NCBI GenBank assembly: GCA_017549105.1
Contig: JAFYVN010000009.1
Span: 1-40,896, forward strand
Length of the DNA stretch: 40,896 bases
From: Clostridia bacterium
Lineage (GTDB): Bacteria; Bacillota; Clostridia; Oscillospirales; Acutalibacteraceae
Reading direction: 5' to 3'
The notes beneath the pieces are model-generated. The model made no database searches. It saw only the letters and a list, made by a program, of their open reading frames with translations, and was not told the origin of the DNA. Made by a program: the position numbers and the translations under genes. Position 1 is the stretch's first letter; every line of letters starts with the position of its first letter. Shown here piece by piece: positions 8,557-21,090 of this stretch.

Positions 8557-10974
8557 TTAGATATTCTTGAGAAGGGGGCCGATGCCTGCAATTGCACCGG
8601 GAATGCCCTTGAGAATCTTGCGGATGCCGCCCTTTTCGCCTGCAATCCACTTAACAAGACCGTCTGCCATATCCTCGCTCATTACACCGCCACTCATGCT
8701 GATGAAATCGCGGAACGGAGTCTGGAGTGCGATTGCCTGAGCAAAGCCTGCGGGAACGACTGTTGTAAGAAGCTTATAGAATCTTGCACCGTTCTTTGTG
8801 TGTGCGCAGCTTTCGAAGGTGTCCTGAATGGTGAGTTTTCTGTCGGGAGCGTATGTTGTGGGAGGAAGCTCTCTGCCGAGAACAGCGATGAACTGCTCAT
8901 CGGGAACATTCTGAACGTCGCCTGTGTAGTAAAGGGGAGCAACAGCAGAATAATCGGGGATTGAAACTGCTTCTGCGCTTACGTTGACTGTTGCAGAAAG
9001 TCTGATATCGGCACTTGATGCACCTACGAGGATATCGAAGTCACCGCTTTCAACGCACCAGTCGTTGATGTTTACATTATAGAAAGCAAATGCTCTCTTT
9101 GAAAGCTCAAATGCAATTTCCTTTTCTTCATCGGGATTGAGCCAGATTTTCTTAAAGCCCTTAAGCTCTTTTTCGGGTCTGTAGATTGTGCTTTCTTTAT
9201 CGGCAACATAAAGCTGAACGATTTCGTAGCCGGGAACTGCGCCTGTATTCTTGATCTTGACGGTTACTGTGAGAGTATCAGTATCCTTGATTGACTTTGC
9301 GGAAACCTTGATATCCGAATACTCAAAGGTTGTGTATGAAAGACCGAAGCCGAAGGGATAACGCACAGCTTTCTTTGCTTTTTCGTAGTATCTGTAACCG
9401 ATGTAAACGCTTTCGCGGTATTCAACTGATGCGGGGTTGCCGGGGAAGTTGTTCTTTGCGGGTGTATCTGCATAGAACATGGGATATGTTTCGGGGAGCT
9501 TACCGCTGGGGTTGACTGCGCCCGAAATAATGTCTGCAACTGCGCCTGCGCCTGCCTGACCGCCGAGATATGAGTTGAGGATAGCCGCAACACCGTCGTT
9601 CCAGGGCATTTCAACGGGTGAACCGCCTGCAAGAACGATGATTGCATTCTTGTTTACCTTAAGAATCTCTGCAACGAGCTTATCGTGTGCGTCGGGAAGA
9701 TTCATATGAGTTCTGTCGTAGCCTTCTGCTTCGTAATCGTCGGTAAGACCGATGAAGATAATCGCTGTTTCGCATCTCTTTGCAAGGTCTGCAGCCTGAG
9801 CAATGAGAGCATCGTTATTCTTTGCCTTCTTCAGCTTAAGTTCATAGCCCTGTGCGAATTCAACGTCGTAGCCGACCTTCTTGAGTTCGTCAAGAGCGTT
9901 GTCAAGCTGAGTGGGGTTGATGTGTGAAGAACCTGCACCCTGGTATCGGGGAGTTCTTGCAAGTTCACCGATAACAGCAACTTTGCCGCTCTTCTTAAGA
10001 GGAAGAATGCCGTTGTTCTTGAGGAGAACCATAGAATTTGCAGCAACCTTTCTTGCAAAAGGCTGGTCATCTGCATCGTTATATGCATAGTTTTTCTTTG
10101 AACCGTCAACGCACTTCTTGATGAGGTTGAGCATATTGAGAGCTCTTTCGTTGAGAACAGCTTCGTCGAGAGTACCGTTCTTGACAGCTTCAACAATCTT
10201 CTTTGCGCCTGAACCTGATGATGAGGGCATTTCGAGGTCGTTGCCGTTCTTAAGACCGAGAACTCTGTCGTTTACTGCGCCCCAGTCGCTGACAACAACG
10301 CCGTCAAATCCCCATTCATTGCGGAGGATTTCAAGCTGAGTGTGCTTGTTTTCGGAGCCGTGGAAGCCGTTGATTTTATTGTAGGAGTTCATAACAGTCC
10401 AGGGCTTTGCCTTCTTGACTGCGATTTCGAATGCAGTGAGATAAATTTCACGGAGTGCTCTTTCGTCAACAACGGAATCGCAGGTCATTCTGCGGGTTTC
10501 CTGGCTGTTTGCGCAGAAATGCTTGAGCGATGTGCCGACACCCATTGACTGAACGCCGTTGATGAAGCCTGCTGAAAGCTCACCTGCAAGGATGGGATCT
10601 TCTGCAAAATATTCAAAGTTTCTGCCGCAAAGGGGAGAACGCTTCATATTGATACCGGGTCCGAGAAGCACGCCGACTTCTTCTTTGAGGCACTTCTTAC
10701 CGAGAGCAACGCCCATTTCAAAAAGAAGCTCGGGGTCCCAGGATGCTGCGGTTGTTGCAGCTGTGGGATAGCTGATTGCGGGAACGCTGTTTGAAAGGCT
10801 GTCACCCGTCTTGCTGTAGTCCTTTTTGCGGAGTCCGTGAGGGCCGTCGCAGACCATAATTGAGGGGAAACCGTATTTTTCCATACCCTTAAGATGCCAG
10901 AAATCTGCACCGTCACAGATAGCGGCTTTTTCTTCAAGAGTCATCTGAGCAAGAATTTCGCTGGGATTTTTCAT
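8557..10974 (-). CDS. Glycoside hydrolase family 3 beta-glucosidase-type enzyme
   Basis: The 805-residue product has no signal peptide and should act in the cytoplasm on imported beta-linked oligosaccharides. The GH3 N-terminal barrel shows CDGPHGLR near residue 42, KHFCANSQE at 151-159, and the nucleophile motif VVSDWG with Asp230. The alpha/beta sandwich domain follows (GAGSSHINP, ILVLAGG-like segment), then a fibronectin III-like domain starting near YPFGFGLSYTTF. An additional C-terminal region after about residue 680 ends in a Gly/Ile-rich hydrophobic stretch (ILKGIPGAIAGIGPLLKNI). AGGAGG sits 8 bases before the ATG and only 13 bases separate it from rmuC. Substrate could be cello-oligosaccharides, gentiobiose or plant glycosides; the sequence does not decide. 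Confidence 0.93.
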   Translation of the reverse strand: MKNPSEILAQMTLEEKAAICDGADFWHLKGMEKYGFPSIMVCDGPHGLRKKDYSKTGDSLSNSVPAISYPTAATTAASWDPELLFEMGVALGKKCLKEEVGVLLGPGINMKRSPLCGRNFEYFAEDPILAGELSAGFINGVQSMGVGTSLKHFCANSQETRRMTCDSVVDERALREIYLTAFEIAVKKAKPWTVMNSYNKINGFHGSENKHTQLEILRNEWGFDGVVVSDWGAVNDRVLGLKNGNDLEMPSSSGSGAKKIVEAVKNGTLDEAVLNERALNMLNLIKKCVDGSKKNYAYNDADDQPFARKVAANSMVLLKNNGILPLKKSGKVAVIGELARTPRYQGAGSSHINPTQLDNALDELKKVGYDVEFAQGYELKLKKAKNNDALIAQAADLAKRCETAIIFIGLTDDYEAEGYDRTHMNLPDAHDKLVAEILKVNKNAIIVLAGGSPVEMPWNDGVAAILNSYLGGQAGAGAVADIISGAVNPSGKLPETYPMFYADTPAKNNFPGNPASVEYRESVYIGYRYYEKAKKAVRYPFGFGLSYTTFEYSDIKVSAKSIKDTDTLTVTVKIKNTGAVPGYEIVQLYVADKESTIYRPEKELKGFKKIWLNPDEEKEIAFELSKRAFAFYNVNINDWCVESGDFDILVGASSADIRLSATVNVSAEAVSIPDYSAVAPLYYTGDVQNVPDEQFIAVLGRELPPTTYAPDRKLTIQDTFESCAHTKNGARFYKLLTTVVPAGFAQAIALQTPFRDFISMSGGVMSEDMADGLVKWIAGEKGGIRKILKGIPGAIAGIGPLLKNI

Positions 10975-13466: not shown

Positions 13467-13895
13467 ATGAAAAAAATCATCGCATTATTTCTTGCCGTTA
13501 TAACCATATTTACAATGGCAATTCCCGCATTCGCAACGGATACCGCAACTCCGTCAGACCCGACAAATCAAGAAAATATTGAAACCAACGAATCCGAAAT
13601 TACTTACATCGATAAGCTCTCATCCGTTTATTCTGCAGGTGCGAAAAATTTTGCGAACGGTTTTGTTTTGACGGGATTTGCAACAATAGGCGCAATACCT
13701 CTGTTTGTTTTTCCTTTTGGTGCTATTGCTGTTTTTGCAGGGATTCCGGGAGGAATTGCATTGACTGTAATCGGTGCAGGTGAACTTGCAACCGCTCCGA
13801 TAATTGCCGCTTTTATGGATGAAAATACAAATCTTGAACCTTTAGAGGGTTTTGACGCGGAAGAAATACTGTCGTTGATGTTCGAAAATAACTGA
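13467..13895 (+). CDS. Short paralogue of the preceding signal-peptide membrane protein, unknown function
   Basis: The 142-residue product has a signal peptide (MKKIIALFLAVITIFTMAIP, cut near AFA), a short Thr/Glu-rich spacer, and a Gly/Pro/Phe-rich hydrophobic double segment (IGAIPLFVFPFGAIAVFAGI and IALTVIGAGELATAPIIAAF) before an acidic tail. The segment order, the GF...P..F..PF pattern and the acidic end parallel its upstream neighbour, 11 bases away. Both are probably cotranscribed with the 42-residue protein. The function is unknown. Confidence 0.82.
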   Translation: MKKIIALFLAVITIFTMAIPAFATDTATPSDPTNQENIETNESEITYIDKLSSVYSAGAKNFANGFVLTGFATIGAIPLFVFPFGAIAVFAGIPGGIALTVIGAGELATAPIIAAFMDENTNLEPLEGFDAEEILSLMFENN

Positions 13896-13900
13896 TGTGT

Positions 13901-13929
13901 TGATTTTTTTTGCTTGCTGTGATAGAATG
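13901..13929 (+). promoter_or_regulatory. mtnN promoter
   Basis: TTGATT at 13901-13906, 17-base spacer, TAGAAT at 13924-13929, just after the stop of the previous gene. Confidence 0.65.
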
Positions 13930-13943
13930 ACTTCATTCTATCG
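13922..13943. promoter_or_regulatory. Perfect 10-bp inverted repeat over the mtnN -10 box, candidate operator
   Basis: GATAGAATGA (13922-13931) and TCATTCTATC (13934-13943) are exact inverse complements around a CT centre. The -10 hexamer lies inside the left arm, and the right arm ends 7-8 bases before the AGAGGTG ribosome binding region. A repressor binding here would block the promoter. No T run follows, so it is not a normal terminator. Confidence 0.65.
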
Positions 13944-13957
13944 CAAGAGGTGTTTTT

Positions 13958-14650
13958 ATGACAGGTATTATCGGCGCAATGCGCATCGAGGTTGAAACAA
14001 TAAAATCGCTTATGGAAAACAAATCCGTTGAAACGGTCAGCGGTGTTGAATATGTAAAAGGTACTCTCCACGGCAAGGATGTTGTTATCGCTGTCTGCGG
14101 TATCGGCAAGGTTGCGGCAGCAATGTGCGCCCAGACGATGATTCTTCGCTACTCTCCCGACAGAATAATCAATACGGGTGTCGGCGGAAGCCTTTCAACA
14201 AAGCTTGCAATCGGTGATATTGCTGTTGCGGAAAGCCTTGTTCAGCACGATATGGACACTTCTCCTCTCGGCGACCCCGTCGGACTTATTTCGGGCATCA
14301 ATGTTGTCAATATGCCTGCCGATGAAAAGGTTGTTGAAACACTCGTAAAAGGTGTTGAAAAGCTTGACGGAATCAAGGCTCTCAAGGGCGTTATCGCATC
14401 GGGCGACCAGTTCATTGCAAGCGAAGAGAAGAAGAAATATATCGTTGATAACTTCGGTGCAATCGTGTGTGAAATGGAGGGCGCAAGCATCGCTCAGGTA
14501 TGCTACACAAACGGTGTACCTTTCGGTGTTGTGCGTGCGGTTTCGGATTGCGCAGACGGTTCATCCCATATGGATTACGGTGAATTCCTTCCGATTGCAG
14601 CGGCAAATGCGGCAAAGCTGATTGAATATTTTGTTGCTGAATGTGAATAA
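13958..14650 (+). CDS. mtnN: 5'-methylthioadenosine/S-adenosylhomocysteine nucleosidase
   Basis: This cytoplasmic enzyme splits adenine from methylthioadenosine, S-adenosylhomocysteine and 5'-deoxyadenosine, removing inhibitory by-products of SAM use and feeding autoinducer-2 synthesis. The 230-residue product has the family length. GIIGAMRIEVE at the N-terminus carries the catalytic Glu11 (E. coli Glu12 equivalent), CGIGKVAAA and NTGVGGSL are the phosphorylase-fold glycine loops, and CEMEGASIAQV plus RAVSD supply Glu174 and Asp197. AGAGGTG precedes the ATG. It has its own promoter and terminator, so it is monocistronic and is not clearly part of the following operon. Confidence 0.97.
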   Translation: MTGIIGAMRIEVETIKSLMENKSVETVSGVEYVKGTLHGKDVVIAVCGIGKVAAAMCAQTMILRYSPDRIINTGVGGSLSTKLAIGDIAVAESLVQHDMDTSPLGDPVGLISGINVVNMPADEKVVETLVKGVEKLDGIKALKGVIASGDQFIASEEKKKYIVDNFGAIVCEMEGASIAQVCYTNGVPFGVVRAVSDCADGSSHMDYGEFLPIAAANAAKLIEYFVAECE

Positions 14651-14661
14651 AAATTCTGTTG

Positions 14662-14689
14662 ACGGGCGTGTTTTTCACGTCCGTTTTTT
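14662..14689 (+). terminator. mtnN terminator
   Basis: 9-bp stem ACGGGCGTG (14662-14670) with CACGTCCGT (14676-14684, one G-T pair), TTTTT loop and a T run. Confidence 0.9.
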
Positions 14690-14737
14690 CAATTATGCAA
14701 CTTACCGCCTTTTTGCGAAAAATAAAAATATAATTTG

Positions 14738-14766
14738 TTGACATTTTACAATTAATTTGATAAAAT
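14738..14766 (+). promoter_or_regulatory. Strong promoter of the SCP2-aminotransferase-transketolase operon
   Basis: Perfect TTGACA at 14738-14743, 17-base spacer, TAAAAT at 14761-14766, 42 bases before the first ATG. Confidence 0.85.
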
Positions 14767-14807
14767 AAATTGAATATCTTTAATGTTTTATTAAGGAGGA
14801 AATCAAA

Positions 14808-15566
14808 ATGATTGACCAGAAAACATTGGCGTACATCAATCTGTACGGCGTGCTGGGTACTCTCGAAAACCTCTGCGAGCTTGCTCCCGAGGCAAAGAGT
14901 ATTCTCACAAACAAAAAGCCCATCTCAATCGGTTTTGAAGTCAAGGGCGGCCCCAGCGCTACCATCACCTTCAAAAACGGCAAGTGCAGAATGGAGCAGG
15001 GTTGCACGAAGTGCGACGTTAAGCTTCCCTTCAGCTCATGTGAAAAATTCAACGGACTTATCGACGGAACCGTTACTCCCATCCCCTCAAAGGGATTTCT
15101 TCACATCGGTTTCCTTCTTAAGGACTTCACAAAGCTCACAGACTTACTTAATAAGTATATGAGACCCGAACCCGCTGACCTTGAAGACGAAGATTTCTTC
15201 AGAATCAGCACAACTCTTATGATGTATACAATTTCCGTTGCTATCGCTCAGATCGGTAACAACGACGAAATCGGCAAGTTCTCCGCAGGCAATATGGTTG
15301 ACGGTGAAATTGCATTCAGCATCAAAGACGGTCCCGCAGCAACAATCAGAGTCAAAAACCACAGACTTCTTGCAGTCAAGAAACCCAGCGAAGCTCCCAG
15401 AGCTATTATGGAATTCTCGGGCATCAAGCTTGCAAGAGACCTCTTTGACGGCAAGGTTAACGCTATTGCTTGCGTAGGCAGCGGCGACATCGTTATGAAG
15501 GGCATGATTTCAATGCTCGACAACCTTAACAGAATTCTTGACAGAGTTGCTCTGTATCTTGCATAA
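14808..15566 (+). CDS. Tandem SCP2-like (sterol carrier/lipid-binding) protein
   Basis: The 252-residue cytoplasmic protein is built from two repeats of an SCP2-like fold. Repeat 1 (about 43-120) reads FEVKGGPSATITFKNGKC ... FNGLIDGTVTPIP ... LLKDFTKLTDLLNKYM; repeat 2 (about 165-250) reads SIKDGPAATIRVKNHRL ... RDLFDGKVNAIACVGSGD ... MISMLDNLNRILDRV. The order beta-strands, a F.G...DG.V step and closing helices matches SCP2 domains, which enclose a hydrophobic ligand. Assignment is by pattern, not by close homology. AAGGAGG precedes the ATG. It opens an operon with an aminotransferase 12 bases downstream and a second duplicated SCP2-like protein at the end, suggesting that the pathway handles a hydrophobic or acyl substrate. 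Confidence 0.68.
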   Translation: MIDQKTLAYINLYGVLGTLENLCELAPEAKSILTNKKPISIGFEVKGGPSATITFKNGKCRMEQGCTKCDVKLPFSSCEKFNGLIDGTVTPIPSKGFLHIGFLLKDFTKLTDLLNKYMRPEPADLEDEDFFRISTTLMMYTISVAIAQIGNNDEIGKFSAGNMVDGEIAFSIKDGPAATIRVKNHRLLAVKKPSEAPRAIMEFSGIKLARDLFDGKVNAIACVGSGDIVMKGMISMLDNLNRILDRVALYLA

Positions 15567-15578
15567 GGAGGAAGAGAA

Positions 15579-16841
15579 ATGAGCATGAAGATTAACACAC
15601 ACGCAAAAAGTGCCGAGCTTTTCCAGAGAGCGGCAAAGGTTATTCCCTCAGGTCTTTACGGCCATCAGGGTCCCGCAGAAGGCTGCTGCATCCCTGTTTC
15701 CGCATATCCTCTTTTCAGCCAGAAGGCACAGGGTACATATTTCTGGGATGTTGACGGAAATAAATATATAGACTATATGTGCGCATACGGTCCAAACGTT
15801 CTCGGCTACAATGACCCCGACGTTGATAAGGCTGTTATGGAGCAGATGAAAATTGAAAACTGCGTTACCGCACCTTCAACAAAGATTATCGAATTTGCAG
15901 AGCTTATGGTTGATACAGTTGCTTCCGCAGACTGGGCATTCTTTGCAAAGAACGGCGGCGACACAACAACTGCGGCTATTATGACCGCAAGAAACGCAAC
16001 CCACAGAAAGAAGATTATCTTCGTTAAGGGTTACTATCACGGTGTTGCTCCCTGGTGCCAGAAGGTTGACTATCCCGGTGTTATCCCCGAGGATGTTGCA
16101 AACAACCTTTATGTTGACTGGAACGATTTCGAGCAGCTCGAAAGAGTTGTTGCAGAGAACGAAGGCGAAATTGCCGCATTCATCTCAACTCCCTATATGC
16201 ACGGCAACTTCCTTGATAACGTGCTTCCCGCAGAAGGTTACTGGCAGAAGGTCCGTAAGCTCTGCACCGAAAAGGGCATCGTTCTTATCGTAGACGACGT
16301 TCGCTGCGGTTTCAGACTTGATCTTGCAGGCTCCGACCATCACTACGGCTTTGAAGCTGACCTTATCTGCTTCTGTAAGGCTCTCGCAAACGGCTGGAAC
16401 GTTTCAGCTCTTTGCGGTAAGGAATGGCTCAAGAGCGCAATCAGCGGTCTTTCATACACAGGCAGCTACTGGATGAGCGCAGTTCCCTTTGCAGCTGCTA
16501 TTGCTTGTATCAACAAGATGAAAGAAATTGACCTTCCCAAGTTCTGCCTCGAAAAGGGCACAATGCTCTGCGACGGTCTTAAGGCTGCTGCCGCAAACAA
16601 CGGCTTCAACCTCAACGTTTCGGGCGAACCCGCACTCTTCTATCTGATGCTTAAGGATGATGATTCACTTATGCTTCATCAGGAGTGGATTGCAGAGGTT
16701 GTCAAGAGAGGCGTTTATATGACCAACCACCACAACCACTTCATCAATGCAGCTCTTTCGGACGAAGACATCAAGCACACAATCGAAGTTGCTGAAGATG
16801 CATTCAAGGCTGTTCGCAAGAATCACCCCGAACTCGGCTGA
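15579..16841 (+). CDS. Class III PLP-dependent aminotransferase, glutamate-1-semialdehyde aminotransferase-like
   Basis: The 420-residue product has the full fold-type I length. The opening AKVIPSGLYGHQGP and WDVDGNKYIDYMCAYGPNVLGY are typical of the GSA-aminomutase branch. PLP contacts are visible at FFAKNGGDTTTAAI (124-134), YYHG 152-155, the DDV 239-241 (most relatives have DEV), and the Schiff-base Lys267 in CKALANGW. It is not likely hemL itself: no tetrapyrrole genes are near and the active-site neighbourhood (GGDTTT in place of SGSEA, DDVRCGF in place of DEVMTGF) differs. AAGGAGG lies before the ATG; a second ATG two codons later is possible. It sits between an SCP2-like gene and transketolase genes. 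The substrate is probably an aldose, ketose or ketol made by the transketolase. Confidence 0.88.
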   Translation: MSMKINTHAKSAELFQRAAKVIPSGLYGHQGPAEGCCIPVSAYPLFSQKAQGTYFWDVDGNKYIDYMCAYGPNVLGYNDPDVDKAVMEQMKIENCVTAPSTKIIEFAELMVDTVASADWAFFAKNGGDTTTAAIMTARNATHRKKIIFVKGYYHGVAPWCQKVDYPGVIPEDVANNLYVDWNDFEQLERVVAENEGEIAAFISTPYMHGNFLDNVLPAEGYWQKVRKLCTEKGIVLIVDDVRCGFRLDLAGSDHHYGFEADLICFCKALANGWNVSALCGKEWLKSAISGLSYTGSYWMSAVPFAAAIACINKMKEIDLPKFCLEKGTMLCDGLKAAAANNGFNLNVSGEPALFYLMLKDDDSLMLHQEWIAEVVKRGVYMTNHHNHFINAALSDEDIKHTIEVAEDAFKAVRKNHPELG

Positions 16842-16849
16842 TTCAAATG

Positions 16850-16996
16850 AATAATGAATAGTGAAAAATGAATAATTAAGGACGGGTTTTCACCCGTACC
16901 CGATATAAAAAGCGTCTCAGACCCGAAACTTTTTCATTCTTCACTTTTAATTTTTCATTTAAAAGAAATTGTAGGGCGGGATGCCCTAATCCCGCC
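16850..16996. repeat. AT-rich imperfect inverted repeat (MITE-like) with GTAGGG hairpin inside the operon
   Basis: The 188-base gap between aminotransferase and transketolase holds AATGAATA-type words at 16846-16875 and their inverse at 16933-16960 (TTTTTCATTC, TTTTTCATTT), a hairpin ACGGGT/ACCCGT at 16882-16897, and a GTAGGGCGGGAT unit at 16971 whose GGCGGGAT (16975-16982) pairs with ATCCCGCC (16989-16996). The latter resembles units near 40251 and 40306. No transposase is present, so it would be a non-autonomous or REP-like element. Confidence 0.6.
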
Positions 16997-17029
16997 GTTA
17001 AATTTATAAATTCTAAGGAGGAATTTACC

Positions 17030-17899
17030 ATGGCATTAACCAAGCAGGAATGGCTCGAGCTTGAAAAGCAGGCTAATGAGCTTCGTAAGCTTTGCCTTGA
17101 CACCACCTATTGGGCAGGCAGTGCTCACATCGGCGGCGGCATGAGCGTTATGGATATGCTCGCTATTCTTTATTACAAGTACATGAAGTACGACGTTGCA
17201 AATCCCCAGTGGGAAGACAGAGACCGTTTCATTCTCAGTAAGGGTCACGCAGGCGTTGCTCTTGCAAGCCTTGTCTGCCACGTTGGTTTTGACGACAAAG
17301 AAAAGCTCAAGACATTCAATCTCAGCAACTCAACAATGGGTATCCACCTTGACTCAAACAAGGTTAAGGGCATCGACGCTTCAACCGGTTCACTCGGTCA
17401 CGGTCTTTCAATCGCTCTCGGTACCGCTCTTGCAGCAAAGGTACTCGGCAAGGATTATATGACATATTGTATCCTCGGCGACGGCGAATGCGACGAAGGT
17501 TCAAACTGGGAAGCAGGTATGGCTGCTGCTCACTTCAAGGCAGACAACCTTATCGCTTTTGTTGACCGTAACAAGTGCATGATTGACGGCCCCACAGAAG
17601 AAGTTATGAAGCTTGAACCCCTTGCAGACAAGTGGCGTTCATTTGGCTTCGAAGTTATCGAGGTTGACGGTCACAACATGAACGCTCTTTCAGAGGCTAT
17701 CGACACTGCTCTCGCAGTTAAGGAAAAGCCCGTTATGATTATCGCTGACACCGTTAAGGGCGCAGGCGTTGATTATATGGAAGGCGACTACAAGTGGCAC
17801 TACGGCGCACTTAACGAAGAAAAATATGAGCTTGCAAAGGCAAGCCTTGAAAAGTATTATGCAGCACGTGTTGCACGTGCAGAAAAGGAGGGCATCTGA
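17030..17899 (+). CDS. Transketolase, N-terminal (subunit A) chain
   Basis: The 289-residue chain carries the thiamine-diphosphate pyrophosphate half of transketolase. Visible motifs are SAHIGGGMSVMD with His33, SKGHAGVALAS (71-81), TGSLGHGLSIALG (119-131) and the metal/ThDP motif GDGECDEGSNWE at 150-161 with Asn181. Two-chain transketolases are usual in clostridia and archaea, so this is a true split and not a frameshift: it has its own stop, and the partner chain has its own ribosome binding site (AAGGAGG) and ATG 3 bases on. An AGGAGG lies before this ATG. Transketolase transfers a two-carbon ketol unit from a ketose to an aldehyde acceptor; the acceptor here need not be a sugar of the pentose phosphate cycle because the operon is not a central-carbon one. 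Confidence 0.93.
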   Translation: MALTKQEWLELEKQANELRKLCLDTTYWAGSAHIGGGMSVMDMLAILYYKYMKYDVANPQWEDRDRFILSKGHAGVALASLVCHVGFDDKEKLKTFNLSNSTMGIHLDSNKVKGIDASTGSLGHGLSIALGTALAAKVLGKDYMTYCILGDGECDEGSNWEAGMAAAHFKADNLIAFVDRNKCMIDGPTEEVMKLEPLADKWRSFGFEVIEVDGHNMNALSEAIDTALAVKEKPVMIIADTVKGAGVDYMEGDYKWHYGALNEEKYELAKASLEKYYAARVARAEKEGI

Positions 17900-17901
17900 T
17901 C

Positions 17902-18912
17902 ATGGCAGGAGGACTGACTTATACCGCTACCGAATCAACCGCTTTCTCAACGGCTGAAATTTACGGTAAGGCTCTTTGCGAGCTTGGCGAAAAGCATCCT
18001 GAGGTTGTTGCTCTCACAGCTGACCTTGGCAAATCAACAAAAATCGGTATGTTCGGTGAAAAATTCCCCGACAGATACTTCAACGTAGGTATTGCTGAGC
18101 AGAATATGTTCGGTATGGCTGCAGGTATGGCAAGAGCAGGACTTGTTCCCTTCCTTTCCACCTTCTCGGTTTTCGCTTCTCTCAGAAGTGCTGACCAGCT
18201 TCACACCGACATCTGCTATCAGAATGTTAACGCAAAAATCATCGCTACCCACGCAGGCACATCCTTCGGTCAGGCGGGTTCAACTCACCACGCTATCTGC
18301 GATATGGCAGTTGCACGTTCAATCCCCAACCTCACCGTTATCTGCCCTGCTGACGGTCTTGAAACATACAATGCGGTTCACGCTGCATACGACAATTTCG
18401 GACCCTACTACATCCGTATCAACAGAGGTTTTGACCGTGTTCTTTACGAAACAAGCGACTACGGCTTCGAGGTTGGTAAGGCTGTGACAATCAACGAAGG
18501 TTCGGATATCACAATCATCGCTTGCGGTTCATGCGTATTCCAGGCATATCAGGCTGCAAAGTTCCTTGAGGTCAACGACGGTCTTAAGGTAAGAGTTCTC
18601 AATATGCACACCATCAAGCCTATCGATAAGGAAGCTATCATCAAGGCTGTTATGGATACCCGCCGCATCATCACCGCAGAAGACCACAATATCCTTGGCG
18701 GTCTCGGTTCAGCTGTTGCTGAAGTTATCGTTGAAGCAGGTAAGGGTTGCGCATTCAAGCAGCTCGGTATCCCCGACAAGTTCGCTCCCATCGGTCTCCA
18801 CGAAGATATTATGTCAACGCTCGGTATCGACCAGAACGGTATCATTGCTGCTGTCCGTGAAGTTATGGGTAAGGACTTCGAACTCGACGACGACTGGGAC
18901 GACGAAGCATAA
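17902..18912 (+). CDS. Transketolase, C-terminal (subunit B) chain
   Basis: The 336-residue chain supplies the pyrimidine-binding and C-terminal domains that pair with subunit A. It shows ALTADLGKSTKI, the catalytic Glu66 in GIAEQNMFGMAAG that activates the ThDP aminopyrimidine, the histidine-rich loop GQAGSTHHA (123-131), and the C-terminal domain (GSDITIIACGS, ITAEDHNILGGLGSAVAE). The acidic C-terminus (DDDWDDEA) is unusual. It starts 2 bases after the subunit A stop. Together the chains give a complete enzyme; 1-deoxyxylulose-5-phosphate synthase is less likely, since the length and the two-chain form fit transketolase better. Confidence 0.93.
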   Translation: MAGGLTYTATESTAFSTAEIYGKALCELGEKHPEVVALTADLGKSTKIGMFGEKFPDRYFNVGIAEQNMFGMAAGMARAGLVPFLSTFSVFASLRSADQLHTDICYQNVNAKIIATHAGTSFGQAGSTHHAICDMAVARSIPNLTVICPADGLETYNAVHAAYDNFGPYYIRINRGFDRVLYETSDYGFEVGKAVTINEGSDITIIACGSCVFQAYQAAKFLEVNDGLKVRVLNMHTIKPIDKEAIIKAVMDTRRIITAEDHNILGGLGSAVAEVIVEAGKGCAFKQLGIPDKFAPIGLHEDIMSTLGIDQNGIIAAVREVMGKDFELDDDWDDEA

Positions 18913-18921
18913 TTTGAGTTC

Positions 18922-18949
18922 TTTTCACTTTCTCGTTCGGTAGTGAAAA
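18922..18949 (+). other. Hairpin between transketolase B and the last SCP2-like gene
   Basis: TTTTCACT (18922-18929) and AGTGAAAA (18942-18949) form a perfect 8-bp stem with a 12-base loop. No T run follows, so it may set stoichiometry or protect the mRNA end instead of ending transcription. Confidence 0.4.
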
Positions 18950-19000
18950 TGAAAAACAACCTCAAATCCGTCATTAAAACAAGCGAAAGGAATGATTGAT

Positions 19001-19807
19001 ATGCCTTCAAGAGAAGACTATTTGACCAATAAAATTTTCCTTTGTGCGGTTCTGCCCCTTATCAAAACCATCGCTACGGATGACCCCAAGCTTGCCAAGA
19101 AATTTGAGCACGCTCATGCGGTTATCCAGGTCAGTGCAAAAGACCCCGAGTCTCCTGACGGCAAGTTTGCAACACATTTTGTTGTTAACAGCGGTGAATG
19201 GCTTTGCCACCCCAATAAGGTTGCTACCAATGCTCACATTGAACTCGAGTTCAAGAACATCGAGACAATGAACGCATTTTTCAAAGGAAAAATCGGACCT
19301 GCAACACTTCCCGCAATGAAGGGCGTTGCAAAGAAACCCGCCGTATTTATGGCATTTATGATGACACTTCTCAAAATGTCATCTCTCCTCACAGCTACCG
19401 AAGCTCCCGAGGATGAAGAATCAAAGAAACTCCTTGTTAAGTGCTATTTCTACCTGCTTTCGAGTGGTATCAGCACTCTCAACAAGCAGGGTCACGAGGA
19501 TATCCACAACTGGACTCTCAAGAGCCCCGACAGAGTTTATGCATGGGCAGTCAATGACTACCCCGAAATCTCCGCTTACATCCGCATCAAGGCAGGTAAG
19601 TCAAAGGCAGGCAGAGGCGTTTATAAGCGTGCTCTTCCCTTCTTCACAATGAGATTTGACAGCCTCGACAGTGCACTCGGCATTCTTATGGGTACCGCAG
19701 ATATGCTTGAATTCACAAAGACAGGTAAGCTTATTATGGACGGCGCACCCGAATTCGGTGCAGAAATCGGTAACTATATGATGCTTGTCGGCGACTACGC
19801 AAGATAA
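19001..19807 (+). CDS. Second duplicated SCP2-like protein, distal gene of the operon
   Basis: The 268-residue product has the same plan as the first operon gene: a first half with AHAVIQVSAKDPESPDGK and IELEFKNIETMNAFFKGKI, then a helical connector with a hydrophobic MAFMMTLLKMSSLL stretch, and a second half with ISAYIRIKAGKSKAGRG, FFTMRFDSLDSALGIL and TGKLIMDGAPEFGAEIGNYM. I recognise the SCP2-like layout by pattern only. The start at 19001 is preferred because AAAGGA lies 8 bases before it; the ATG at 18992 follows that site with no gap. A terminator follows. Having two different lipid-fold proteins bracket the enzymes argues that the intermediate or product is hydrophobic. Confidence 0.62.
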   Translation: MPSREDYLTNKIFLCAVLPLIKTIATDDPKLAKKFEHAHAVIQVSAKDPESPDGKFATHFVVNSGEWLCHPNKVATNAHIELEFKNIETMNAFFKGKIGPATLPAMKGVAKKPAVFMAFMMTLLKMSSLLTATEAPEDEESKKLLVKCYFYLLSSGISTLNKQGHEDIHNWTLKSPDRVYAWAVNDYPEISAYIRIKAGKSKAGRGVYKRALPFFTMRFDSLDSALGILMGTADMLEFTKTGKLIMDGAPEFGAEIGNYMMLVGDYAR

Positions 19808-19814
19808 ACAGACA

Positions 19815-19849
19815 ACGGGACGGTCTTTTGATATGCACCGTCCCGTTTT
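19815..19849 (+). terminator. Terminator of the SCP2-aminotransferase-transketolase operon
   Basis: 10-bp stem ACGGGACGGT (19815-19824) with ACCGTCCCGT (19837-19846), then TTTA. Confidence 0.85.
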
Positions 19850-19856
19850 ATATTAA
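19828..19856 (+). promoter_or_regulatory. Possible promoter embedded in the preceding terminator
   Basis: TTGATA at 19828-19833, 17-base spacer, TATTAA at 19851-19856. The -35 is in the terminator loop, so the next gene could start its own message here. Confidence 0.45.
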
Positions 19857-19875
19857 GCCCAAAGGAGCTTGCTTT

Positions 19876-20796
19876 ATGAAAAAATCAATTTTCGCTATTG
19901 CAATGGTTTTTGTTTTTATGTTTACTGTTATCAGTGGAGTTTCGGCAGAAAATAATGTTGAAAAAAGCGAAATAACTTCAACTGACACATCGGTACCAAC
20001 CATAACAATACCTGCACTCCCGATAGCATGTAACAATTGCCACACATACTTCAATGATAGAGAACAATACAATGAACACATTGCTTCTTGTAATATCCAT
20101 AAAGAGTGTGTTGGATGCCGGAAAACTTTCTATAATTCAGAACTATACGATGCTCATCTCCAAAACTGTATAGAAGAAAAAAGTTCACACTTAACGATCA
20201 AAGACCTTCTTGAGTTAATTTTAGACAACGCAAAAAGCAACAATAGCCAATGGGACGATATCGAAGCAACCATTATAAAAATTGTTGATATTCTCAGCAA
20301 CCTCAGTGGAGATCCCGATAATCTAGAAAAACTTGATGCAGCAGTCGCCGAACTTGAAGCGTTGGGTTTTGAAGATAGCGAATGGTTGATATCAATTCTG
20401 AAATCTAAAATAAAAACTCTTTACGCCGGTGAAATAGCTGTGATAAAAATCGATATCCGAACACCGTCACAGACAAAAATCAACTATGGCGATACAATTT
20501 TACTTCATGCAGATGTCGACTCCTTGCCCTCATATGCAACAATTCAATGGACTGCCGATAACGACAATTTTACAATAGTTGAAATTTCGGAAGACGGCAG
20601 AACCTGCAAAATTACTCCGAACAAATCGGGCGATACCGTATTCACTGCATCGGTTATCAACAAGGATAATGGCGGTGTGCACGGAAAAGACACTCAGACC
20701 ATGACATCAAATGCAGGTATTTTCCAAAAGATCCTCGCATTTTTTAAAAATCTGTTTAGATTCACAAAAGACATGCCCGAAGCAATTATATTCTGA
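19876..20796 (+). CDS. Secreted protein with two C2HC zinc-finger-like motifs, Ig-like domain and C-terminal amphipathic helix
   Basis: The 306-residue product starts MKKSIFAIAMVFVFMFTV with a signal peptide cut near VSA (residue 24). Two motifs follow: CNNCHTYFNDREQYNEHIASC (spacing C-x2-C-x12-H-x3-C; 21 residues, first and last are Cys) split here as CNNC and HIASC, and CVGC with HLQNC of identical spacing. The aromatic-leucine pattern is like classical zinc fingers. A helical middle (about 90-185) leads to an Ig-like domain (IKIDIRTPSQTKINYGDTI ... VFTASV) and a basic amphipathic tail (FQKILAFFKNLFRF). The start at 19876 has AAAGGAG before it. The Ig-like plus tail module is clearly related to that of the protein at 38749. 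The function is unknown. Confidence 0.85.
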   Translation: MKKSIFAIAMVFVFMFTVISGVSAENNVEKSEITSTDTSVPTITIPALPIACNNCHTYFNDREQYNEHIASCNIHKECVGCRKTFYNSELYDAHLQNCIEEKSSHLTIKDLLELILDNAKSNNSQWDDIEATIIKIVDILSNLSGDPDNLEKLDAAVAELEALGFEDSEWLISILKSKIKTLYAGEIAVIKIDIRTPSQTKINYGDTILLHADVDSLPSYATIQWTADNDNFTIVEISEDGRTCKITPNKSGDTVFTASVINKDNGGVHGKDTQTMTSNAGIFQKILAFFKNLFRFTKDMPEAIIF

Positions 20797-20827
20797 TATA
20801 TGTTAATTCAGTCTTATTGTTAAATAA

Positions 20828-20860
20828 CAAAACCCGACAGAGTAAATCTGTCGGGTTTTG
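20828..20860. terminator. Bidirectional terminator
   Basis: Perfect 14-bp stem CAAAACCCGACAGA (20828-20841) with TCTGTCGGGTTTTG (20847-20860) and a 5-base loop; A and T runs on both sides serve the plus gene and the converging minus operon. Confidence 0.92.
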
Positions 20861-20865
20861 ATTTC

Positions 20866-21090
20866 TTATTTCTTATTTACTTTCGGAATTATAAGACATC
20901 CCGCAATAACCGCAACCGCCGCAACAACCGCAACGATAACCCACACCATCGGCTGGCTGCCCGTATCGGGTGCGGAAACCGAATCGGGCGATGCCGCAAA
21001 TGCGCTGAATGCCGCTGTCACAACGCCGAGAATCATTATTGCGCAAAGCACGATTGCAACTATTCTGACTATAATATTATTCTTTTTCAT
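20866..21090 (-). CDS. Small secreted protein with sortase-like APDTG sorting signal
   Basis: The 74-residue product has an N-terminal signal peptide (IVRIVAIVLCAIMILGVV, cut near AFA), about 10 exposed residues (SPDSVSAPDTGSQP), a second hydrophobic helix (MVWVIVAVVAAVAVIAGC) and a basic end (KVNKK). The order xPDTG, hydrophobic span, basic tail is that of cell-wall-sorted proteins, and clostridial sortases tolerate first residues other than Leu. After both cleavages only a 10-15 residue peptide would remain, which is odd. It could equally be a small two-helix membrane protein. ATG 21090 has GAGGTG at proper distance inside the end of the mutase gene, so the two are cotranscribed; the in-frame GTG at 21099 is itself part of that site. 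Confidence 0.75.
   Translation of the reverse strand: MKKNNIIVRIVAIVLCAIMILGVVTAAFSAFAASPDSVSAPDTGSQPMVWVIVAVVAAVAVIAGCLIIPKVNKK

Follow-up and report, generated by a model that had tools for sequence, protein, structure and literature searches.

What would a gut bacterium do with a split transketolase, a class III aminotransferase and two SCP2-like proteins encoded side by side? The question is raised by a five-gene operon, SCPa-AT-TkN-TkC-SCPb, in contig JAFYVN010000009.1 (assembly GCA_017549105.1, a Clostridia bacterium of the Acutalibacteraceae), whose 40,896 nucleotides are called the window below. An earlier, sequence-only reading had proposed that ketol transfer to a long-chain aldehyde, followed by amination of the resulting ketone, would produce a 2-amino-1,3-diol, the head of a sphingoid base, without serine palmitoyltransferase (SPT). 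Our analysis identifies a real, conserved module of which this chemistry is the best reading, while its substrates, its direction and the role of the SCP2-like proteins are what we infer.

In the proposed scheme, the remodelled split transketolase would move a HOCH2-CO- unit from a sugar donor to an aldehyde without polar groups, probably a long-chain one, to give a 1,3-dihydroxyalkan-2-one. The aminotransferase, a relative of FumI, would then exchange the C2 ketone and an amine, probably with alanine/pyruvate as the partner pair, to yield the 2-amino-1,3-diol, and the SCP2-like proteins would hold the greasy intermediates. That the two enzymes interconvert an amino-diol, a 1,3-dihydroxy-2-ketone and a fatty aldehyde, in whichever direction, we consider fairly probable. 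The full statement, in which a highly expressed module serves a sphingoid-type long-chain amino-diol with a net biosynthetic flow, is held tentatively, at somewhat short of an even chance.

A conserved block with a remodelled transketolase

A scan of GTDB contigs for SCPb recovered 35 loci. Every one belongs to an assembly of uncultured Clostridia, many come from ruminant gut, and a few are pairs of contigs of one assembly. The five genes stand in order in 22 of these loci, with SCPb itself cut by the contig end in two (L035, L052), and the remaining 13 are cut by the locus end; as the scan was selected for SCPb, these counts describe order and not frequency. The widest spacing was seen in L054, a locus cut by its end, where operon genes are separated by 1.3 to 2 kb holding their own open reading frames (ORFs). 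In unselected searches, each including the window's own genome, SCPa was present in 37 of 150 genomes of the family, and AT in 11 of 295 genomes of the order and 3 of 341 of the class (E 1e-90 or better) and in 6 of 378 of the phylum (E 1e-80). Among 17 regions fetched for distant copies, nine carry all five genes and eight SCPa-AT alone, the latter coming from other families in seven cases and from the window's own family in one (G022). In both G022 and G199, TkN-TkC-SCPb is located elsewhere in the genome. The phylum sample added the full operon in G905 and G1046, SCPa-AT-TkN-TkC up to a contig end in G877, SCPa-AT with an unlinked TkN-TkC in G906 and SCPa-AT alone in G963. Within the family, a transketolase of the operon type lies on the SCPa contig in 30 of 33 SCPa genomes, the other three being G043, G063 and G077; three further SCPa genomes (G013, G060, G144) were left out of the family searches for SPT, transketolase and ceramidase. 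Since the flanking genes differ between clades, the five-gene block is the unit, and the neighbourhood that had been read from a single locus proves to be conserved in gene order, with the full operon also present in another family of the phylum.

Separately, a gene for an extended SDR follows SCPb in six loci (L037, L038, L040, L041, L043, L044; the L037 copy matches Pfam Epimerase at E 3.6e-8) and precedes the operon in a seventh (L055:125-1147), making it a candidate sixth member of the gene set.

TkN matches Pfam Transketolase_N (PF00456), and TkC matches Transket_pyr (PF02779) and Transketolase_C (PF02780), all above cut-offs; the best PDB match of both is the split transketolase of Carboxydothermus hydrogenoformans (6yak, 6yaj). 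When aligned with that enzyme and human transketolase, the window TkC keeps Ser45 and His117 and has Ala at the places of human-chain Arg318 and Asp424. Acceptor-pocket residues expected of a pentose-phosphate transketolase, namely the Asp/Arg pair (E. coli D469 and R91) and a further Arg, are missing: the window has Ala125 of TkC and Asn97 of TkN in place of the pair, and Ala18 of TkC in place of the further Arg. To follow these positions across relatives, the variant type was defined by at least 48% identity to the window TkC and the absence of Glu-Asp at 124-125, a definition that dropped no row; 48 distinct variant TkC rows were reduced to 44 by dropping four partial second reads (L057, L058, L122, L123). 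Asp occurs at TkC 125 in none of the 44, and Arg at TkC 18 is missing in 41, the three rows that retain it all being unlinked copies. Asn97 is present in all 41 distinct TkN rows of at least 48% identity to the window. The exchange is not unique to the operon group: L134 and L135, just under the 48% bound, combine Asn with Ala or Gly, and other split enzymes (L140, L141, L146) combine it with Asn or Leu.

We take the Asp of this pocket (D469 in Escherichia coli transketolase) to read the 2-hydroxyl of the acceptor, and the further Arg, presumably E. coli R358, to bind its phosphate. According to PMC5073344, D469 of the E. coli enzyme points into the active site and forms a salt bridge with R91, and the variant S385Y/D469T/R520Q belongs to an evolved, D469T-based series in which acceptor use moved from phosphorylated aldehydes towards non-polar ones. 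Judged by these residues, the operon transketolase is a specialised enzyme with a predicted less polar acceptor pocket, for which we infer a long-chain aldehyde as the acceptor.

The same survey bears on whether this is an ordinary pentose-phosphate transketolase among unrelated neighbours, which we regard as very improbable. Split transketolases are known, that of Carboxydothermus being one example (PMC7661550), and the operon enzyme is the only transketolase found in its own genome (a 1.24 Mb assembly, estimated 63.9% complete), both of which agree with an ordinary role. Against it, the block is conserved in differing flanks and in more than one family, and a second, canonical split transketolase exists at 28 loci checked. 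Thirty loci (L085-L114) were fetched as best PF02780 matches, of which 28 are readable split transketolases; these second enzymes have Arg at the TkN 97 place, Arg at the TkC 18 place and Asp at the TkC 125 place, with the TkN Arg and TkC Asp present in 28 of 28. L092 is partial, with the Asp present, and L094 is another thiamine-diphosphate enzyme. A purely pentose-phosphate role, which the sequence-only reading had named as its own possible undoing, is therefore contradicted for relatives, including G145 of the same genus (L098), although no second transketolase was found in the window's own 63.9%-complete genome.

The aminotransferase and the SCP2-like proteins

AT belongs to Pfam Aminotran_3, and its nearest relative among all solved chains is FumI (6hbs; 300 bits, E 1.7e-88, residues 11-416 aligned), to which it is closer than to the aminomutases, glutamate-1-semialdehyde aminomutase coming second at 165 bits. 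It falls below the curated cut-offs of the hemL models (209.4 against 527.3 bits for TIGR00713; 234 against 398 for NF000818) and of the GntE model (227 against 525). Soluble substrates are common for both transketolases and class III aminotransferases, and the GntE and aminomutase scores, sub-threshold as they are, would also agree with a soluble amino-polyol or amino-sugar pathway whose SCP2-like proteins bind small ligands. We nevertheless hold such a pathway to be improbable, in view of the relation to FumI, the linkage to SPT-like and KdsR-like genes described below and the loss of the active-site Asp. FumI itself acts on hydrolysed fumonisin B1, whose C2 amine it transfers onto pyruvate (PMC2933618).

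SCPa reaches the Pfam SCP2 family (PF02036) at 25.8 bits, above the cut-off of 21.3, and among its 28 aligned members 12 match it with E-values of 0.01 or lower. SCPb by itself matches no Pfam family and does not reach the SCP2 cut-off, a match being found in one of its 22 aligned members (E 0.0018). Direct comparison of the two profiles with hhalign (probability 98.2, E 6e-14, 221 columns) identifies SCPa and SCPb as homologous, which bears out the description of the pair as duplicated SCP2-like proteins. Against solved structures in the PDB, the SCPa profile has no match and the SCPb profile an insignificant one alone (E 0.53).

Linkage to serine palmitoyltransferase and direction of flow

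The textbook enzyme for entry into sphingoid bases, SPT, differs from the route proposed for the operon in using serine and an acyl thioester. Relatives of this enzyme are found beside SCPa-AT. The gene order is SPT-SDR-SCPa-AT in L063 (G402) and SCPa-AT-SPT-SDR in L066 and L067 (G257, G270), with gaps of about 40 bases or less and one overlap in the L063 and L066 clusters. The best PDB relatives of the L063 SPT-like protein are the Sphingobacterium-type SPT entries 3a2b/8guh at 402 bits, the top-scoring AONS/KBL-named entry reaching 278 bits. Among NCBIfam models this protein scores highest with SPT (516 bits, below the cut-off of 640), and the SDR with KdsR, 3-ketosphinganine reductase (217.6 bits, below the cut-off of 400). 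The two are therefore placed as relatives by best match and not as members by cut-off. In G184 and G189 the SPT-SDR pair is unlinked from SCPa-AT. As an observation in its own right, such SPT-like/KdsR-like pairs occur in this order of gut Clostridia at L063:6910-8908, L066:11326-13291, L115, L116 and L162.

In the order sample of 295 genomes, SPT was found in 41 (E 1e-110), so that more Bacillota than assumed may synthesise sphinganine. The variant transketolase was found in 6 (E 1e-100). SPT occurs in all five genomes with AT and without the variant transketolase, two of which share a genus, and in none of the six that have both. Among the 290 genomes other than those five, the six included, 36 have it (Fisher 4e-5, uncorrected for kinship). 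A rule by which SPT and transketolase simply exclude each other was weighed and abandoned, as G905 has both and most sampled genomes are without SPT anyway.

A maximum-likelihood tree of 32 chosen AT rows, rooted at the midpoint, adds an order of events. The SPT-type rows together with L079 form one group (support 92/91) within the transketolase-type rows; with L079 left out, a clade of SPT rows is rejected (p-AU 0.008), and transketolase presence changes at least twice on the tree. The deep rows are mostly transketolase-associated (L130, L131, L127, L128, L068, L070), L129 being the exception, and L068, L070 and L129 are long branches. This topology fits one loss of the transketolase in a lineage now largely found in SPT-bearing genomes, and suggests that SPT and KdsR supply there what the transketolase supplied; since AT was retained alongside SPT, it would still be needed with it. 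A wider reading follows these lines: an SPT-independent Bacillota pathway would build sphingoid-type 2-amino-1,3-diols by transketolase C-C bonding on a fatty aldehyde and subsequent transamination, and would have dropped the transketolase in one lineage after entering SPT-bearing genomes. We regard it as possible though doubtful.

The retention of AT and SCPa with SPT and KdsR also agrees with a different long-chain amine built on top of the SPT product, either through a second amine (a two-headed base) or through an aminomutase-like reaction to an amino-ketone, and AT does lie within the wider aminomutase family. Such a product would leave unexplained the linkage to a transketolase, which the AT tree suggests to be the older one, and we rate this reading as a little less probable even than a soluble pathway.

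For the sphingoid-type interconversion, the remaining question is its direction. With ribosomal-protein genes of near relatives as reference, codon adaptation of the five operon genes is 0.63-0.85, the 11 reference genes scored against themselves giving 0.71-0.83 and the 20 other window ORFs scored giving 0.35-0.60, with the exception of a GH3 enzyme (0.72). From their own third-base mix the operon genes would be expected to score 0.34-0.37, far below the values found, and some other genes, the GH3 enzyme among them, likewise exceed such a prediction by far. The operon is accordingly predicted to be highly expressed, and high steady expression fits bulk biosynthesis better than scavenging. The GH3 glycosidase (window 8557-10974) is, at 0.72, the sole gene outside the operon with ribosomal-protein-like codon bias among those scored. 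Transhydrogenase-like genes are oriented divergently from SCPa-AT in G906 (L131) and from TkN-TkC-SCPb in G022 (L117). On account of the codon bias, the SPT/KdsR clustering, these transhydrogenase-like genes and the transketolase loss where SPT exists, we favour a net biosynthetic flow, and lean moderately towards biosynthesis over catabolism.

The same chemistry run backwards would have AT deaminate sphingoid bases to keto-diols with pyruvate and the transketolase move the two-carbon head to a sugar phosphate, freeing a fatty aldehyde, as an alternative to sphingosine-1-phosphate lyase. We consider this catabolic direction unlikely, though it is the most substantial of the alternatives, and several observations agree with it. 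FumI works in the deaminating direction; in G199 an aldehyde dehydrogenase gene follows TkN-TkC-SCPb (L118:5364-6734) and an alanine dehydrogenase gene lies divergently, about 1.2 kb from SCPa-AT (L068:672-1811); in G022 an iron alcohol dehydrogenase gene follows AT. A TetR gene follows the operon in L127 (by Pfam), TetR-like genes stand near L074 and L076 (by eye), and many loci come from ruminant guts. Ceramidase-family matches are found in 14 of 33 family genomes with SCPa as against 2 of 28 without (Fisher 0.003; G000 and G022 were left out of this search); all but that of G040 are weak and they are clustered by clade, and the enrichment is weak evidence for catabolism. The G040 match itself (G040:C13:5986-7566), in a genome with the operon, is a strong alkaline-ceramidase match at E 5e-63. 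Against the catabolic direction stand the biosynthetic setting given by the SPT-like and KdsR-like genes clustered with SCPa-AT, the five-gene block without a transporter, hydrolase or regulator, and a ribosomal-protein-like codon bias that would be odd for a minor substrate, though the GH3 enzyme of the window shares it.

Besides the deaminating direction of FumI and the dehydrogenase genes of G199 and G022, further points weigh against a biosynthetic amino-diol route. AT persists, in the same cluster, even where an amino-diol is already supplied by SPT and KdsR; in that setting it would have to run the opposite way or serve another purpose. In the order sample, AT is missing at the chosen cut-off from 36 of the 41 genomes with SPT; the full operon coexists with SPT in G905; and G735 and G963 have SCPa-AT with neither SPT nor the variant transketolase. 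SPT was not found at E 1e-60 in the window's own 63.9%-complete genome or in 34 other genomes of the family, but this absence is weak evidence because most sampled genomes are without SPT. In biocatalysis work the products of transketolase tend to be 3S, while sphinganine in its common form is 3R. Within the conserved block no gene for fatty aldehyde or ceramide formation was seen, and the genomes were not searched for such genes. Taken together, the sphingoid-type 2-amino-1,3-diol of the earlier proposal gains support from the FumI relation, the SPT-like and KdsR-like neighbours and the apparently remodelled acceptor pocket, all read from sequence; its claim of synthesis without SPT, in its simple form, explains neither AT kept with SPT and KdsR nor the presence of both sets in G905.

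Locus layout and comparison with known systems

The ORFs and spacings of the window match the earlier description of a five-gene set enclosed by a promoter and a terminator, a promoter-like site and a terminator-like hairpin being present (Table 1).

Table 1. Features of the operon in the window
Feature	Position	Strand	Description
Sigma-70-like promoter	14738..14766	+	TTGACA-17-TAAAAT, TG before -10
SCPa	14808..15566	+	252 aa, SCP2-like protein
AT	15579..16841	+	420 aa, class III aminotransferase; FumI is the nearest solved structure
Spacer, 188 bases	16842..17029	+	Inverted repeat 16975-16996; length variable among relatives
TkN	17030..17899	+	289 aa, thiamine-diphosphate half of the split transketolase; Asn97 at 17318-17320
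TkC	17902..18912	+	336 aa, pyrimidine and C-terminal half; Ala18 at 17953-17955, Ala125 at 18274-18276
SCPb	18992..19807	+	271 aa, distant homologue of SCPa
Terminator-like hairpin, then T-rich run	19814..19847	+	By folding energy

Close spacing holds for two of the four gaps (SCPa/AT, 12 bases; TkN/TkC, 2 bases) and not for the others (AT/TkN, 188; TkC/SCPb, 79). The promoter-like site has 11 of 12 matches and ranks first of 15 such sites in 13500-21000, a number not above chance (11.7 expected); TTGACA-N16-18-TAAAAT occurs three times in the window against 0.04 expected. The terminator-like hairpin folds at -19 kcal/mol (z -5.2), with an equally good fold in 0 of 200 shuffles; it is absent from a list of 17 terminator-like sites (8.0 expected) in which loops were limited to 8 bases. 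The AT/TkN spacer holds two inverted repeats (16882-16897 and 16975-16996), the exact second of which is absent from the fetched loci except copies of the window, and the corresponding gap in relatives varies in length from a minimum of about 30 bases, a pattern suggestive of a small inserted element. The spacer was also considered as an internal terminator and rejected, its hairpin being without a long T run and the gap being about 30 bases in some relatives. Downstream of the operon, 19867-20796 encodes a protein whose start resembles a leader (by eye) and whose C2H2-zinc-finger-like motifs score slightly below Pfam cut-offs.

If true, the proposed chemistry would add a new route, by transketolase and amine transfer, for building or degrading sphingolipid-like lipids. 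Surveys of SPT genes would then miss producers or consumers of bioactive lipids among gut Clostridia, and the operon would offer a natural enzyme pair for chiral amino-diols. Among the matches listed from the open-licence literature, as excerpted there, no paper describes this gene set or the making or breakdown of sphingoid bases by way of a transketolase.

Of the known systems, the textbook pair is SPT as entry and a phosphate-dependent lyase as exit, and relatives of bacterial SPT and 3-ketosphinganine reductase cluster with SCPa-AT in L063, L066 and L067. The Pseudomonas sphBCD sphingosine genes likewise belong to bacterial sphingoid-base metabolism and include a predicted PLP (pyridoxal phosphate) enzyme, SphD; they differ in encoding a periplasmic oxidoreductase and a cytochrome c, and the available text describes the operon without a transketolase or SCP2-like gene (PMC11893366). 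FumI, the aminopentol aminotransferase of Sphingopyxis sp. MTA144 (PDB 6hbs, 6hbv), is a class III aminotransferase like AT, its relative by sequence, and acts on a sphinganine-like C2 amine; its substrate, however, is the core of a mycotoxin, hydrolysed fumonisin, which carries a methyl at C1, and the portion of PMC2933618 available describes no SCP2-like or transketolase partner with it. The Carboxydothermus hydrogenoformans enzyme shares the two-gene architecture of TkN and TkC but has retained the Arg and Asp that are missing from the operon enzyme. In the E. coli D469T variants, as in the operon enzyme, the Asp that pairs with R91 is lost, a change linked to the acceptance of other aldehydes (PMC5073344). 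Those variants are laboratory-made, whereas in the operon enzyme both partners of the pair have changed in nature. Transketolase and transaminase have likewise been joined in a laboratory cascade, of which the proposed pathway would be the natural counterpart.

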